A stretch of DNA of 64,000 nucleotides from an uncultured Clostridia bacterium (GTDB lineage: Bacteria > Bacillota > Clostridia > Christensenellales > Borkfalkiaceae), in the NCBI GenBank assembly GCA_947628505.1, contig CANRAD010000013.1, forward strand, positions 1 through 64,000. The letters run 5' to 3'. Each line of letters opens with the position of its first letter. Position 1 is the first letter of the stretch. Below the pieces are notes generated by a model, which was not told the origin of the DNA, did not search any database, and saw nothing but the letters and a program-made list of their open reading frames with translations. Positions 37,692 through 54,458 of the stretch are shown piece after piece. A program made the translations under genes and the position numbers.

Positions 37692-37713
37692 AAAGGTACA
37701 ATTCAAGGTTTTT

Positions 37714-37825
37714 CTTTGGGGCGGGGTGAAATTCCCCACCGGCAGTATAGTCTGCGAAGCGGCTTTAAGGCCGCCCGAGCGGGTGAGATTCCCGCACCGA
37801 CGGTATAGTCCGGAGAGGAAAAGAA
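37714..37825 (+). promoter_or_regulatory. FMN riboswitch (RFN element)
   Basis: The conserved blocks appear in order: GGGGCGGGGTGAAATTCC, CCACCGGCAGTA, GCCCGAGCGGGTGAGATTCC, CACCGACGGTATAGTCCGGA and GAGGAAAAG. This is the FMN aptamer that shuts off riboflavin genes when FMN is abundant. It is followed by a terminator and ribU. Confidence 0.97.
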
Positions 37826-37855
37826 AAACGGCGCGTATTCGTCGTGTTTGTTTTT

Positions 37856-46896: not shown

Positions 46897-46911
46897 ATTT
46901 TTGAACGAAAC

Positions 46912-46947
46912 AAAAAAACGCGCCCGCGGCATAAAGCCGCGGGCGCG
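46912..46947. terminator. Terminator of the tandem peptide operon (also usable by the reductase unit)
   Basis: A 12-bp perfect stem CGCGCCCGCGGC / GCCGCGGGCGCG with a 5-nt loop is followed on the minus strand by seven Ts. Confidence 0.85.
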
Positions 46948-46965
46948 CCGTTATTTGTGCGTTTT

Positions 46966-47061
46966 TTATCTTGCGCAGTTGAGCGCAACGTAGGAGAGAG
47001 GAGAAACCCCGTACGATTCGTTATATTCTTCCATTTCGTTTAATTCAAAGTATAACAACAT
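46966..47061 (-). CDS. Small peptide 2 of tandem pair (31 residues, conserved C-terminus)
   Basis: AGGAGG (47070-47075) lies eight bases before the ATG. The peptide starts MLLYFELNEMEEYNESYG, acidic and Tyr-rich, and ends PLSYVALNCAR, identical in its last 11 residues to peptide 1. In the DNA for this shared end, all six differences between the copies are synonymous, which points to selection on the peptide. There is one Cys, three residues from the C-terminus. No signal peptide or membrane helix is evident. I recognise no family. The conserved-tail, variable-head layout is the reverse of most RiPP precursors, and no modification enzyme or transporter is adjacent. Confidence 0.7.
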   Translation of the reverse strand: MLLYFELNEMEEYNESYGVSPLSYVALNCAR

Positions 47062-47129
47062 TGCAAATACCTCCTGAAAGTATTTTCATTAATCGCCCCT
47101 TACATATTTTCCGCGAAATCGCGCGGATT

Positions 47130-47222
47130 TTATCTTGCGCAGTTCAATGCAACGTAAGAGAGCGGGCAAAGAGCCTCCTGTCTCTCGTCGATAGCGCTTA
47201 AAGCCTCGTAAATCGTAATCAT
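47130..47222 (-). CDS. Small peptide 1 of tandem pair (30 residues, conserved C-terminus)
   Basis: AAGGAGG (47230-47236) lies seven bases before the ATG, about 49 nt from the predicted transcription start. The peptide starts MITIYEALSAIDERQEAL, then a Cys, and ends PLSYVALNCAR. It shares the last 11 residues with peptide 2; the head is unrelated apart from length and acidity. A small hairpin (TCCGCG...CGCGGA) and 68 nt separate the two. Possible roles include signalling peptide, toxin-like peptide, metal or redox-sensing peptide through the Cys, or translated leader; none is shown. Confidence 0.72.
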   Translation of the reverse strand: MITIYEALSAIDERQEALCPLSYVALNCAR

Positions 47223-47277
47223 AATCAAACCTCCTTAAAAGGTAGTCAAACGGGTTATCTTCCCCGATTGCAGTTGC

Positions 47278-47306
47278 AGTATAGCACTTAAAAAAATGTT
47301 GGTCAA
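47278..47306 (-). promoter_or_regulatory. Promoter of the tandem peptide operon
   Basis: TTGACC and TATACT are 17 bp apart on the minus strand. The spacer ends TTTTTTTAAGTGC, matching the promoter of the micro-ORF transcript at 16722-16749. AATGTT and AACATT flank the -35 as a short inverted repeat. Confidence 0.8.
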
Positions 47307-47514
47307 TAACATTTTACAAAATTTTAAAATTTTTATTTTTGTTATTTTCTACCATTATTATATGAAAATAATTATAATTTATGTGAACTTTACAAAAATC
47401 AAAAAATTTTAGTGTAATTATTTTTCATAAGTAACAAAAATTTATGTTTTATAACAACAAAATTAACATTTTTGTTTGTAGGTATAAATTAAAACGAAAA
47501 AAATATATAAAAGT
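47307..47514. other. AT-rich intergenic segment without genes
   Basis: About 210 bp that are well over 80% A+T, unlike the ~50% surroundings, upstream of the peptide promoter. A-tracts and T-tracts alternate. It could act as an UP element or nucleoid-protein binding region. I see no coding sequence in it. Confidence 0.6.
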
Positions 47515-48854: not shown

Positions 48855-51800
48855 ATGGCGACAAAGAAAAAAGCGGAAAACATAGAGATCGAAGGCGAAC
48901 TTTTAAACTCCGTCTCCTATTCCGCCTATTATAACAGGATACCTCTTTTTACTTCTTTCAGAATTTACAATCCGGGCGAGGAGAATCTCTCGGGCGTAAC
49001 AGTGAGCGTTTCCGGCTCCACGCCGCTCGTGTTGCCCGCAACCTATAAAATAGAGGAAATTCCGCACGAAAGCAGTATTGAGGTGCGGTTCGACAATATT
49101 CTCAACCCCAAGTATCTTGCGGATATCGATCAGAGCGAGAATTGCACGGTAACAGTAAAGGTTACATGCGGCAAGACGGAGATCTGCGAGTTGAAAGCTG
49201 ACGTTGAGGCGTTGCCCATCGATTGCTGGTCGGGGCTTTCGGGCAACGCGGAAATGCTCGCTCCTTTCGTGCGTCCCAAACTCGCCGATTGCCGCAAGAT
49301 TCTCGCGGAAGCCGGTCTGCAACTCAGAACGTGGGGATATTCTTCCGAATTTTCCGGCTATGCCGGCAACGATAAAAACGCCGTCAGAAACGCGTTCGCC
49401 TCCATATATACCGCCATAAGGAGATTGGACGTCGTCCGCGAAGGGGACGGAGATCTGACCGGCTTGACTTGCGCCGGCGACATACACGGATTGTCTCAGA
49501 ACAAAAAGGCCACGCCTTTGGGACTTGCGCTCTTCGCGGCAAGCTGTCTCGAAGCCGCCCGTCTGAACCCCGTGATTTTATTGGGCAAAAAGTCCGTAGG
49601 CGTGGGAGTATGGCTCTATGAAAGCTGTTTTTCCTCGTCTTTGCAGGACGATATGCCGCTGATAGAGAGATATCTCGAAGACGGCGTGAACAACCTCGGC
49701 GCCGTGGACGTCGAAGATATGTTCGCGCATAAAAACGCGAGCTACGCCACGAGCGAGGCCCACGCGATTTCCGCTCTCGGCAAGGGGGCGTTCGAAGTCT
49801 GCGTCGATATAAAGAGATGCCGCATAGGCGGGCTGTTCCCGCTCCCCATAAAGGTAAAGACAGACGCAGGTTACGAATTGTTGGGCGAGGGACAGTTCTC
49901 CGTCGAGCAGAAGCCGTCGAAGATAATCGACGCTTCGACGTTCGGATACAAAAAAGCGGCTTCCAAGGACAAGACTTGGCAGCGCCGTCTCCTCGATCTG
50001 TCGCTCAAAAACAATCTGTTGAATTTCAGATATAAAAAGGATTGTCTGAAAATAGTCGCGCCGGACGTCGGGAGCTTCTGCGCGGGACTCGAAAAAAAGG
50101 ATAAATTTACTCTCGTTGCGGGCGCCGCGGCCGACGAAAAGGAGATTTTTTCGAGCGCGGCAAAGGATAAGGGACTGAACGAGCTCTCGCGCCTTGAAAT
50201 GGAATCGGGAAAACTGAGGTGCGCCGCTGGCAACGAAGTCTTGTCGGAAACGGCGCAGTCGCTCATAAGAAAAGCGCGCGCCGCCGAAGAAGAGGCGGGC
50301 GCGAAAACGCTGTATCTCGCCGTCGGTTTTCTGAAATGGCGCAGAGAGGGCGAAAAAGAGGATAAATACGCTCCCATTGCGCTTATGCCCGTAAATCTGA
50401 AAAAGCCGAGAAATCAGGGCGTCGTGCTCGAACCGGGCGAAAAATTCGAGGTCAACACAACGTTGCTGGAATTTCTCAAAGAGGAATTTTCCCTCGATAT
50501 ACGCGGCGTGGAGGATACGGATCTCTCTCCGTCAGAGCTGATGGCGGTGTTCAGATCGGGAACGGCCGATATGAAAGGCTGGCAGGTTTACGACGGCGCA
50601 TATCTCGCCCAATTCACGTTCGTAAGATATGCGATGTGGGCCGACGTGCGTAAAAATATAGATATATATCGCAAAAATCCGCTTATAGAGAGCCTTCTTA
50701 CCAACTCGTACAAGCTCCCCGCATGCGAGAGCCCGGATGTGAACGAGGACGACGGCGATCCTCGGGAAGTGCTTCTGCCGCTTCCCTACGACAGCGCGCA
50801 GTATGCCGCCGTGGCGCGCTCCGCCAAGGGCGAAACGTTCGTTCTGCACGGACCTCCGGGCACGGGCAAGAGCCAGACTATAACAAATATGATAGCCAAT
50901 GCCGTCGCGAGCGGCAAGCGCGTATTGTTCGTGGCGGAAAAACAGGCGGCGCTCGAAGTGGTGAAGAAGCGACTTTCCGAAATAGGAATAGGCGAATTCT
51001 GTCTTTCTCTGCATTCCGGCAAAGCCGACAAGGCGGAAGCCGTGCGCTCTATAGAACACGCGCTCTCCCTTTCGGGTTCTTACGACGCCGCGGGATTTTC
51101 CGCCGACGCCGGCAAAATAGTCGATTTGCGCGAAAAACTTCGCGCTCCCTTCGAAGCTCTTCACAAAAAGAGGAGGTTGGGCATTTCGGTATACGAGGCC
51201 ATAGTGGGCTATCTCGAAAACAAGTCCGCTCCGGAGCTTATGGATATTGAGAGCACGTTTTACGATTCGCTCACGCGCGAGAAATTGGCCGAATGCGAGA
51301 GCATGCTCAACGTGGCGCGCGCCGCGGCGAAAGAATGCGGCGGGGTATACCGTTCGCCCTTTGCCGAAGTGCGCATAACCTCTTGCGACAAAAAAGTAAA
51401 AGCGGCGGTAGTATGCGCCGCCGAAGTCGTTCTCGCGGAATTGAAGCATCTCAAAAATTATCTCGGGCTGTTTCTCGAAACTTTCAATCAGAAAGTGAGC
51501 AAATTCACCGATAAAAAACTTGAATCGCTCTCCGAAATCTGCAAAATGCTTAACGGGGAAGAGCTCGCGCCTTTCTTCGGTTGCGACGGCGCGGAATTTT
51601 ATAAATTCTACAACGCCAATTTGAGATACGACCGCGAGACGGAAATTTGGTTGAAACGTTTCAGGTCGTTGCCGGATATCGGGAAATTGGCTCCGGAGAC
51701 AGAGAACGAAATAGATAAATGGGGCGATAATTATCGCTCGTCCCGCGTTTTGTTGCAAGTGATAAAACGCATAAACAAGTGCGGCGAGCCGTTGAAAGAA

Positions 51801-54458
51801 AAGGACGAACTCGAATGGATAAAGCGCGCCGCGGAAATAGAAAAAGCGCGCGCCGCCATTCTTTCGAACACGACACTATCCAAACAGTTTTCGGGCTTCG
51901 GCGGGATAAACGCGAAAAAGCGCGAGGAATTTCTGAAACCCCTTTACGCGCTTCACTCCCTTGCGGCGCAGGTGTTCATGGATTACAACGCCGACGCGTT
52001 CAACGGCGTTTGCATAGATTGCAACGGCGTTTTGAAACCTCTCATCGAGGGCGTGCTCTCTTCCGCGGCGGCCTTCGAAAAGAGCGCGGCGCATTTTATG
52101 CGCACGATAAAAGCGCAGCCCGGCGACTTTGCCGACGCCGATATATTCGAGGTATACACCGAAAAGTGTACGGCTCTCATAGACAACGCGGATATGCTGC
52201 CCGCGTGGTGCGAATATAAGGCCACGGCTAAAAAGCTCAACGAATACGGGCTCACTTTCATAACCGACGCAATGGAGAGGGGAAGGATAAGCGGCAAACA
52301 GATACTCTCGTCTTTCAGAAAAAACGTGTACAGAAATTTCATACAGACGAATATCCCGGCGGACGACGCTCTTGCGGCGTTTTCCGCAAGCGTTGCGGAC
52401 GAATGTGCGTCCGAATTTTCGCGCGTTTTGGAGGAATTTTCCGCACTCACCCGCGAAAAGATACGCGCCGACCTTATATCGCGTCTGCCCGCAAAGGATA
52501 CGGAAGGCGCTCTCGCTCTCGAATTGATGGCGTTTCAGCGCAGCGTGAAGGGAAATATGCGCGGATTGAGTCTGAGAACGCTGTTTTCGGAGATACCCAC
52601 GCTTTTGAAGGCGACTTCTCCTTGCATGCTTATGAGCCCCATAACGGTTTCGCAGTTTCTGCCGCCCGATCCGGAGCTTTTCGATATGGTTATCTTCGAC
52701 GAGGCTTCGCAGATGCCCACGTGCGAGGCCGTTCCGTCGCTCGCAAGGGCAAAGAGCGCCGTAATAGTCGGCGATCCCAAGCAAATGCCGCCCACGCTGT
52801 TTTTCATGGGCGCGGGCGCGGACGAGGAACATCCGGAGGCGGAAGATCTCGAATCGGTATTGGAAGATTGTCTTGCGTTGGGCGTGCCGGAGGAGCATCT
52901 TTTGTGGCATTACCGCTCGAAACACGAAAGCCTTATAGCTTTCTCCAACATAATGTATTATTCCGGACGTCTGTGCACTTTCCCCTCGCCGGACGCTCTC
53001 GAAAGCAAGGTGAAACTGAGATATATAGAGGACGGCGTTTACGACAGAGGCTCGTCCAAGTGCAATAAAGCCGAGGCGGAAGCGCTTGTCGCCGAAGTCG
53101 TGCGCAGGCTTAAAGATCCCGCGCGCAGGTCTTCGAGCATAGGCATAGTTACGTTCAGCGCGCCGCAACAGATATATGTTGAAAAACTTCTCGGTAAAGA
53201 GATAGCGCGCAACGGTCTTGAAAGCGCGGCTTACGAAAGAGACGAACCCGTGTTCGTCAAAAACCTTGAAAACGTTCAGGGCGACGAGCGGGACGTCATT
53301 TTATTCTCCGTATGTTACGGCCCCGACAGGCTGGGCAAAATATCCCTCAATTTCGGGCCTTTGAACCAATTCGGCGGTTGGCGCCGTCTCAACGTGGCTG
53401 TGTCGCGCGCGAGAGAGGAGATGATTGTGTTTTCCTCAATGCGCTATTCGATGATAGATATGTCCAGAACGACGTCGCGCGGAGTGGCAGGTCTCAAAGC
53501 GTTTCTGGAATTTGCCGAAAAGGGCAGAACCAATATCGCTCAGCGAAGCGACGAGATAATAATAAACAGGCAGAGCATAGGCAAATATGTCGCCGACGAA
53601 CTCTCCGCATACGGCTACGACTGCCGTTGCAACGTCGGCGTTTCCGACTTCAAAATAGACGTGGCGGTAGTCGATCCGTCGGACAAACGCAGATTTATCC
53701 TCGGAGTGCTGTGCGACGGCGCGGGCAAATTCTCCGTCAAGGACAGGTCCGTTATGCAGGCGCAGACGTTGAAGCGCAACAATTGGAACGTTCTGAGGCT
53801 GTATTCCGTCAACTTTTTCAATAATCCGAAACGCGAGATAAAAAAGATAAAGGAATACCTCGATAAACTTACGAAAGGCGGCAAAAATGCGGGAATATCT
53901 TTCAAAAAGCCCTATCGCGCAACTTCTTTGAAACTTGCTTTTGCCGAGCCTTCCGAAGCGCTTTCGGGCGCGCGCGACGCCGACCTCGCTCGCGCGGTAA
54001 AAGCCGTTGTGGCCGCGGAAGAACCTATAACGGAGCAATTCCTCATAAAGCGTTCACTGTCTTTGCTGGGAATAACGCGTTACGGCGTAAAGCTCGAAAG
54101 CAAAATGCGCTCCGTCATAGCCAAGTGCGGATTTTCAACCGCCGAACTCGCCGGTTGCGTATGCTATTTCAAAAACGACAAGTTCTCCTCTTTCGACAGG
54201 TGCCGCGTCGAAGAGGGCGAGCCGATGAGAAGCGCCGATTCCGATTTCTGCCCTTACGACGTCGTCTCGCTAATTCGCGGAATACTTCTTTCCAAAGTCA
54301 GCGTGTATTGCGACGAACTCGTGCCCATGGCGTTGAAAGAGCTCCGCGTAACGCGTTCAACCGAGAAATTGCAGTCTATGGTGCTCTCGTGCATAGACGA
54401 GGGAATAAAGCGGGGGATATTCATAAGGAGCGTGTCCGATAAGATTTCGCTCGTATGA
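48855..54458 (+). CDS. Giant DUF4011 / SF1 helicase / PD-(D/E)xK-fold / DUF3320 protein
   Basis: This is the largest gene in the window (1867 residues). Order of parts: an N-terminal beta-rich region (~1-360), the DUF4011 motif RRLLDLSLKNNLLNFRYK at ~376, SF1 helicase motif I GPPGTGKSQTITN (~665), motif II VIFDEASQMPT (~1280) with GDPKQMPP, late motifs NVQGDERDVILFS and LNVAVSRARE (~1515), an MTES_1575-type nuclease fold (~1580-1690), and DUF3320 (~1700-1800). Proteins with the DUF4011-helicase-nuclease layout have been described as antiphage defence (Hhe-type). The nuclease core keeps IDVAVVDP but has GVLCDG where GIECDG is expected, so the catalytic Glu is Leu and cleavage may be lost. It is a single-gene unit with its own promoter and terminator. 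Confidence 0.9.
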   Translation: MATKKKAENIEIEGELLNSVSYSAYYNRIPLFTSFRIYNPGEENLSGVTVSVSGSTPLVLPATYKIEEIPHESSIEVRFDNILNPKYLADIDQSENCTVTVKVTCGKTEICELKADVEALPIDCWSGLSGNAEMLAPFVRPKLADCRKILAEAGLQLRTWGYSSEFSGYAGNDKNAVRNAFASIYTAIRRLDVVREGDGDLTGLTCAGDIHGLSQNKKATPLGLALFAASCLEAARLNPVILLGKKSVGVGVWLYESCFSSSLQDDMPLIERYLEDGVNNLGAVDVEDMFAHKNASYATSEAHAISALGKGAFEVCVDIKRCRIGGLFPLPIKVKTDAGYELLGEGQFSVEQKPSKIIDASTFGYKKAASKDKTWQRRLLDLSLKNNLLNFRYKKDCLKIVAPDVGSFCAGLEKKDKFTLVAGAAADEKEIFSSAAKDKGLNELSRLEMESGKLRCAAGNEVLSETAQSLIRKARAAEEEAGAKTLYLAVGFLKWRREGEKEDKYAPIALMPVNLKKPRNQGVVLEPGEKFEVNTTLLEFLKEEFSLDIRGVEDTDLSPSELMAVFRSGTADMKGWQVYDGAYLAQFTFVRYAMWADVRKNIDIYRKNPLIESLLTNSYKLPACESPDVNEDDGDPREVLLPLPYDSAQYAAVARSAKGETFVLHGPPGTGKSQTITNMIANAVASGKRVLFVAEKQAALEVVKKRLSEIGIGEFCLSLHSGKADKAEAVRSIEHALSLSGSYDAAGFSADAGKIVDLREKLRAPFEALHKKRRLGISVYEAIVGYLENKSAPELMDIESTFYDSLTREKLAECESMLNVARAAAKECGGVYRSPFAEVRITSCDKKVKAAVVCAAEVVLAELKHLKNYLGLFLETFNQKVSKFTDKKLESLSEICKMLNGEELAPFFGCDGAEFYKFYNANLRYDRETEIWLKRFRSLPDIGKLAPETENEIDKWGDNYRSSRVLLQVIKRINKCGEPLKEKDELEWIKRAAEIEKARAAILSNTTLSKQFSGFGGINAKKREEFLKPLYALHSLAAQVFMDYNADAFNGVCIDCNGVLKPLIEGVLSSAAAFEKSAAHFMRTIKAQPGDFADADIFEVYTEKCTALIDNADMLPAWCEYKATAKKLNEYGLTFITDAMERGRISGKQILSSFRKNVYRNFIQTNIPADDALAAFSASVADECASEFSRVLEEFSALTREKIRADLISRLPAKDTEGALALELMAFQRSVKGNMRGLSLRTLFSEIPTLLKATSPCMLMSPITVSQFLPPDPELFDMVIFDEASQMPTCEAVPSLARAKSAVIVGDPKQMPPTLFFMGAGADEEHPEAEDLESVLEDCLALGVPEEHLLWHYRSKHESLIAFSNIMYYSGRLCTFPSPDALESKVKLRYIEDGVYDRGSSKCNKAEAEALVAEVVRRLKDPARRSSSIGIVTFSAPQQIYVEKLLGKEIARNGLESAAYERDEPVFVKNLENVQGDERDVILFSVCYGPDRLGKISLNFGPLNQFGGWRRLNVAVSRAREEMIVFSSMRYSMIDMSRTTSRGVAGLKAFLEFAEKGRTNIAQRSDEIIINRQSIGKYVADELSAYGYDCRCNVGVSDFKIDVAVVDPSDKRRFILGVLCDGAGKFSVKDRSVMQAQTLKRNNWNVLRLYSVNFFNNPKREIKKIKEYLDKLTKGGKNAGISFKKPYRATSLKLAFAEPSEALSGARDADLARAVKAVVAAEEPITEQFLIKRSLSLLGITRYGVKLESKMRSVIAKCGFSTAELAGCVCYFKNDKFSSFDRCRVEEGEPMRSADSDFCPYDVVSLIRGILLSKVSVYCDELVPMALKELRVTRSTEKLQSMVLSCIDEGIKRGIFIRSVSDKISLV

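Follow-up and report, generated by a model that had tools for sequence, protein, structure and literature searches.

Introduction

Sda, MciZ and CmpA exemplify the regulatory microproteins of bacteria: they are about 30–50 residues long, soluble, and thought to bind a protein. In the bacteriocin regulons pln and blp, a shared promoter box precedes several unrelated small peptides, and in the Rgg/ComR systems a dyad lies near the promoter, an arrangement akin to that described below. Operators of the lacO type, recognised by LacI regulators, are composed of half-sites TGTGA-N5-TAACA. For RRNPP systems, the criteria include a propeptide of 10–100 amino acids, a Sec- or SHP-type export signal on it, and a directly adjacent TPR receptor of 250–500 amino acids (PMC10075063), and leaderless communication peptides are mostly of 8–10 residues, unlike the family reported here (PMC10075063, PMC10518010). 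The GMSC catalogue lists 52.6 of its 96.7 million families with at least three members as genus-specific (PMC11364881).

We analysed a stretch of 64,000 nucleotides (hereafter the window) from an uncultured Clostridia bacterium of the Borkfalkiaceae, in which two adjacent genes for paralogous peptides of about 30 residues had been predicted from the letters alone. We followed their family, here called family A, through 93 genomes of the genus, and describe the promoter that it shares with other families of small peptides.

The peptide gene pair

Both minus-strand reading frames, of 30 and 31 codons, lie where the original prediction had placed them, with AGGAGG ahead of each and with one promoter and one terminator for the two (Table 1). 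The open reading frame list gives gene 1 as 32 residues from a TTG two codons upstream; we took the ATG, which sits behind the ribosome site. The last 11 residues (PLSYVALNCAR, then the stop codon) are identical between the peptides. The tail DNA had been said to differ at six positions, all synonymous; the differences are synonymous, and their number is five over the 11 codons plus the stop. Significant copies in the window's genome (1.71 Mb, 40 contigs) are restricted to this pair. With members in 72 of the 93 genomes, the pair represents, by its sequence record, real genes, beyond what chance would give.

Table 1. Features of the peptide operon, in window coordinates.
Feature	Position	Strand	Description
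Peptide gene 2	46966..47061	-	31 aa, MLLYFELNEMEEYNESYGVSPLSYVALNCAR; family profile and AlphaFold
Peptide gene 1	47130..47222	-	30 aa, MITIYEALSAIDERQEALCPLSYVALNCAR; family profile and AlphaFold
Shine-Dalgarno site, gene 1	47229..47236	-	AAGGAGGT; read from sequence
Shine-Dalgarno site, gene 2	47069..47076	-	CAGGAGGT; read from sequence
Promoter	47278..47311	-	-35 TTGACC (47306-47301), 17-base spacer, extended -10 TGC-TATACT (47286-47278)
Presumed operator	47297..47311	.	TGTTA-TTGAC-CAACA, overlaps the -35 box; genus consensus TGTNATTGACTNACA
5' UTR hairpin	47247..47270	-	near the expected transcript start
Rho-independent terminator	about 46911..46950	-	GC-rich hairpin and T-run; read from sequence

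Family A across the genus

A profile of 16 members found family A in 72 of the 93 genus genomes, the window's included (E <= 1.5e-6); 16 of the remaining genomes gave no match and five gave weak matches only. From 76 stretches (75 fetched ones and the window) we gathered 123 copies that have a start codon, representing 116 distinct peptides, leaving out one extra match at a contig end that had no start. All begin with ATG and are 26–38 residues long, and a ribosome-site match of at least five bases precedes 119 of the 123, although start codons, here as for the promoter-site frames below, were picked with a preference for such sites. Most stretches carry one copy (37) or two (34); three copies occur in three stretches, and four and five copies in one each.

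Purifying selection is evident in the comparison of copies. Among 127 pairs of equally long copies that are at least 80% identical, a set that is not independent, pN was lower than pS in 126, with a median pN/pS of 0.165, and 24 disjoint pairs gave a mean pS of 0.378 and a mean pN of 0.067. This dN/dS-type check bears out the proposal that selection acts on the peptide. Conservation of the tail outside the window's genome holds in the 72 genomes and stops at the border of the genus, as far as we searched. The consensus of a 72-member alignment reads MxIYDxLNELDExxxxxGVSPLSYVxLxCAR, in which both Tyr residues are invariant and V25, L27 and C29 are almost so. The single Cys three residues from the end, to which attention had been drawn, is present in the window pair and stands at that position in 103 of the 116 distinct peptides, but it is not essential to the family; six peptides have no Cys at all, which weakens the case for thiol chemistry. 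Some tails extend beyond the Cys motif (GCGKDAE, NCGQQL, CARK).

We compared copies by operon position across the 34 stretches that have two of them. In 56 of 68 comparisons, a copy was best matched by the one occupying its own position in another operon; mean normalised scores were 0.80 between copies at the same position, 0.66 between copies at different positions, and 0.57 within one operon. Tandem copies are therefore, as judged by these scores, not plain repeats, and their differing heads mostly mark separate lineages.

A near-invariant promoter

Most family A regions share an upstream element, TGTNATTGACTNACA-N10-TGNTATACT, which is near-invariant; in regions that lack it, the stretch often stops short or another small reading frame intervenes. 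This genus-wide promoter, common to other peptide families, had escaped the original prediction and is invisible from one window. A search allowing up to two mismatches returned 88 sites in 77 of the 93 genomes (summed counts), and the reversed control returned none. Across the 88 fetched sites TGT, ATTGAC, T, ACA and the -10 box are almost fixed and the spacer is variable. The dyad TGTNA-N5-TNACA surrounds the -35 box. The consensus -35 is TTGACA; 86 of the 88 sites have TTGACT in its place, which fits what the dyad asks. We count against a repressor dyad that its free positions 4 and 12 showed no covariation over the 88 sites.

The exact 15-mer operator, with N at positions 4 and 12, gave 87 matches in 77 of 93 genomes and one in the control; 84 of the 87 precede small reading frames and three are truncated by contig ends. 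The window's genome contains no exact 15-mer, its own copy carrying a single change from the genus consensus (C for T). The fully symmetric form TGTGATTGACTCACA occurs in one genome only (G169), twice, both times at contig ends that hide what comes next. In 10 of the 93 genomes, some more than 95% complete, we saw no operator and no member of family A.

Directly after the -10 box, most sites have a hairpin, GAAATCAGG-loop-CCTGATT. Individual folds were below the mean of their own shuffles at 81 of 88 sites (mean -8.0 versus -3.5 kcal/mol), the shuffles preserving base composition and not dinucleotides. Loop lengths vary among the 49 hairpins compared, and one stem position, read over 82 anchored sites, is A-T in 33, G-C in 27 and unpaired in 18. 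Behind the last peptide, 82 of the 88 sites have a hairpin of terminator type, as do 138 of 600 random stretches. With its own promoter, 5' hairpin and terminator, the operon looks like a free-standing transcription unit.

Outside the genus, the promoter matched in eight of 266 genomes (rows counted, in a family sample of 331), and seven of these eight sites have no small reading frame downstream. At the eighth, in genome G092 of the sister genus g9, and at a site in G066 of the same genus (loci L264 and L267), the promoter TGTGATTGACGAACA and a hairpin precede a cationic peptide of 16 residues and WLRYVRSLM type, either MRFIQWLRYVRSLMHA or MKFFRWLRYVRSLMRA, which closely resembles a peptide family of the first genus. 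A looser promoter pattern matched seven of 101 g9 genomes, of which G092 and G066 look genuine. At another g9 locus (L265) a loose promoter match is followed by a 33-residue hydrophobic peptide, which we take to resemble a mobile-element holin-like peptide.

Genes behind the promoter

A reading frame of 15–60 codons with a ribosome site lies 25–130 nt downstream of all 88 promoter sites, as against 255 of 7040 random positions (3.6%) and seven of 147 further TTGAC promoters from these loci, the 25–130 nt span having been set from the observed sites. Of the 88, 68 (the window's among them) were included because they carry family A; the promoter alone led to the remaining 20, and all 20, once fetched, have such a frame. 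At one site (L220) the frame starts with GTG, and at another (L212) the first small frame looks doubtful and a convincing one begins at 276. Two observations count against the association: a looser match in the genus, with two mismatches, stands ahead of an ordinary 337-residue gene (G204), and three matches in the window's genome with two or three mismatches stand at no such small genes. Of these three, the one read closely (L178, C1:132567, two mismatches) lies in a stretch that looks mobile and contains one frame of ABC-type ATPase and another resembling a relaxase.

Single-linkage clustering at E < 1e-3 sorted 165 distinct promoter-site peptides of 20–48 residues, two of them from loci outside the 88 sites (L244, L248), into 21 clusters: one of 112, eleven of 2–12, and nine singletons. 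The largest comprises family A and near kin, and two of its members look foreign; four peptides of the type LPL[V/I]YLAL belong to none of the other clusters and are thus counted with family A. Among the singletons, some that lie far downstream are probably frames that arose by chance. Other families are exemplified by MFFTKLFNGMFKNVDRRCAENRLDLKTAARFYRALGNM, MIYELFDDIKDCDGRENGSFFSGAFINAFLRTM, MDMYANLTKTCVEHCMNYTRQFNGKAVNIF and MKFIQWLRYINSLLHPNRHSR, and several operons combine two or three families. Ten representative peptides from the promoter families had no match above the curated cut-offs of Pfam or NCBIfam.

The common C-terminal look of family A and the other promoter families was judged by eye only, and homology between family A and a second family, B, was not significant with hhalign (probability 0.6%, P 0.099), so a docking helix common to all families would be a guess. 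One family B peptide, RRC...DLKTAARFYRAL (L211, L217, L244, L248 and others), weakly resembles a stretch of Csx1/Csm6, at E 0.0043–0.024 in Pfam, NCBIfam and PADLOC, a lead that falls short of the Pfam and NCBIfam cut-offs. Peptides of the type MDMYxNLTxTCxxHCMNY (L119, L134, L213), of which some contain several Cys residues plus a His, are perhaps metal-binding; at L119 and L134 they stand before family A in the same operon. A second peptide module, with the families MIYELF...AFLRTM and MYDF...AIFASMLMF, lies downstream of a LacI-type gene, identified by reading, at L215, L216 and L223–L227.

Predicted structure and database searches

AlphaFold models, made for the window pair, predict two helices in each peptide: residues 3–13 and 21–29 in the 31-mer (mean pLDDT 87.7, pTM 0.45) and, at a modest mean pLDDT of 69.7 (pTM 0.26), residues 4–14 and 20–29 in the 30-mer. 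The S/N-P ahead of the second helix may serve as a helix cap. All 116 distinct family A peptides have a net charge between -1 and -9, and their longest run of AVLIMFWCG residues is 2–6; negative charge together with short hydrophobic runs speaks for soluble peptides. Judged by composition, the family has no Sec- or SHP-type export signal (at most one Lys or Arg in residues 2–10, negative charge), no membrane-spanning hydrophobic helix of the type I toxin kind (runs of at most six), and no GG pair (0 of 116).

Family A appears confined to one genus, as far as we searched. We searched 347 genomes sampled from the order, a set that includes at least 11 from the genus and covers the sister genera of the family thinly; the best match outside the genus had E 0.0156 and an internal stop. 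An exact DNA pattern for the tail matched 10 of 301 family genomes, all of the genus, and a single-peptide search of 41 relatives gave 21 matches, one of which lay outside the genus (E 0.1, internal stop). The absence of a known family, noted from the sequence alone, was upheld: Pfam and NCBIfam gave no significant or precursor-family match for 16 members, PHROGs no significant phage-borne homologue of the same 16, PADLOC no match for the window pair, and the PDB nothing significant, with five designed proteins at E 0.08–7. The chance-level matches, for single members or pairs, were to halocidin (E 0.031), HokA (E 0.15) and PHROGs entries (0.14–0.27). IMG/VR matched neither the tail pattern nor the promoter, and one peptide searched against phages and plasmids had no match. 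Our literature search, a small one, found nothing on these peptides, which is no proof of their absence from print, and no account of microprotein families that are unrelated to each other yet marked by one dedicated promoter. Overall, the evidence favours the proposed new class of small peptides under selection.

Gene neighbourhood and candidate regulators

Eight ORFs around the operon, of 26 listed, were scanned with Pfam, which named a GntR-aminotransferase regulator, an FMN reductase, an M23 peptidase and a DUF4011 helicase. As had been predicted, these eight include no modification enzyme or exporter; there is also no TPR receptor and no immunity gene among them. The next gene downstream follows the terminator on the opposite strand. 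The window also has an FMN riboswitch (Rfam RF00050, 108.4 bits) at 37708-37829 (+). At 48855-54458 (+) it encodes a protein of 1867 residues, possibly a defence protein, whose domains are DUF4011, AAA helicase and MTES_1575 nuclease.

Over the 76 stretches, neighbour clusters of M23 peptidase (38 proteins) and GntR-aminotransferase (34) recur. We rejected a conserved neighbour as a clue to function; contexts vary and many stretches stop at contig ends. LacI was rejected as a general regulator, its gene being found in 20 of 93 genomes (E <= 1e-60) and absent from the window's genome. Operators of the Rex, GlnR/TnrA and CRP types were rejected on spacing only, which differs. Mimicry of a metal-transport ATPase was considered on account of weak recurrent profile hits in ORFs of 749–795 residues, which we took as chance; in the three that were read, the hit is the same piece of a heavy-metal P-type ATPase (VSTLVYVAL, named by reading).

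Discussion

Selection on the peptides, their transcription unit and their common promoter are established at the level of DNA and its comparison among genomes. As to function, we favour, if only tentatively, soluble two-helix microproteins in one dedicated and probably repressed regulon, with the C-terminal helix docking on a partner. A dimeric repressor would bind the dyad TGTNA-N5-TNACA and block RNA polymerase; its release would yield a stable mRNA and a burst of peptide. Each peptide would form a two-helix hairpin, in which the C-terminal helix PLSYVxLxC[A/G/N]R might dock on one conserved cellular partner and the differing first helix would give each paralogue a separate second contact. 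Repression is suggested by a promoter otherwise close to consensus with a dyad covering its -35 box, and docking by the soluble look, the lack of an export signal by composition and the preserved C-terminal helix. It is also possible that the genus has a peptide-regulation or peptide-defence system of its own, with one dedicated operator-promoter for microprotein genes at one to three sites per genome, in which a fixed promoter and 5' hairpin stay while many unrelated microprotein families are gained, lost and swapped; the predicted two-helix form would then apply at least to family A.

Other explanations share some of this evidence. The C-terminal 8–11 residues might be released, exported and sensed as a pheromone, with a peptide-responsive regulator on the dyad autoregulating the operon in an RRNPP-like manner. 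A conserved tail behind a variable head, the dyad on the -35 box, and exact operators that precede small reading frames in 84 of 87 cases, the other three lying at contig ends, would suit such a system, as would the length of validated RRNPP propeptides, 21–50 residues (PMC10075063). We nevertheless hold the pheromone unlikely: a TPR receptor is absent among the window neighbours scanned, the peptides have no basic-hydrophobic N-terminus (at most one Lys or Arg in residues 2–10, negative charge in 116 of 116), and the near-consensus promoter suggests repression over activation. Still more doubtful are stress- or membrane-acting peptides, similar to type I toxins or leaderless bacteriocins and silenced by the repressor. 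Family A is acidic and has no membrane-spanning stretch, and the window neighbours scanned include no immunity gene, even if the promoter is dedicated, some operons add cationic amphipathic peptides of 21–22 residues such as MKFIQWLRYINSLLHPNRHSR, and two sister-genus genomes have a cationic amphipathic peptide of 16 residues. The resemblance of one member among 16 to HokA (E 0.15) and of another to halocidin (E 0.031) is at chance level and not significant.

The conserved tail with Cys at -3 in 103 of 116 peptides could also belong to RiPP precursors in which this Cys is the modified residue, but six of the 116 peptides and the ends of several other promoter families do without it, and no maturase was found among the eight neighbouring ORFs scanned with Pfam; we regard RiPP precursors as improbable. 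Least probable of all, in our judgement, are nascent-chain arrest peptides acting inside the ribosome. Residues conserved directly at the stop codon are what such peptides would have, and a chain of 26–38 residues could mostly fit the exit tunnel; against this, the window transcript contains no downstream gene, ending at a terminator before a gene on the opposite strand, and a few tails run past the Cys motif.

For most small-protein families of uncultured bacteria, only the bare sequences are known. In this genus, a signature in the DNA predicts the positions of small genes, unites unrelated families in one presumed regulon, and yields defined elements for study: a 15-base operator, a 34-base promoter and conserved helices. 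The regulator or the partner, once found, would open a new system, and promoter-guided searches may expose further hidden microprotein regulons.

Comparison with known systems

The operon resembles a peptide regulon, yet the tests made here speak against an RRNPP system, a type I toxin with its hydrophobic helix, and a RiPP cluster. As with Sda, MciZ and CmpA, family A is about 30 residues long, predicted to be soluble, and presumed to bind a protein; no sequence relation to them was found, and tandem paralogues and a turnover of families under one promoter set it apart. One promoter element serves several unrelated small peptides here as in the pln and blp regulons, whereas family A has no GG pair and the window neighbours scanned include no immunity or exporter gene. 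The half-sites of lacO resemble TGTNA-N5-TNACA, but the centre of the genus dyad is TTGAC and the LacI-type gene of the second locus is missing from the window's genome. With RRNPP and leaderless communication peptides, family A has in common tiny genes, strong ribosome sites and conserved C-terminal residues (PMC10075063, PMC10518010), and its 26–38 residues lie within the RRNPP propeptide range; the window operon, however, has no adjoining TPR receptor, and the family A head is acidic and is no Sec/SHP-type N-terminus. Like many small-protein families of GMSC (PMC11364881), family A is genus-specific and has no annotated domain; unlike them, it is tied to a near-invariant promoter that serves other peptide families as well.
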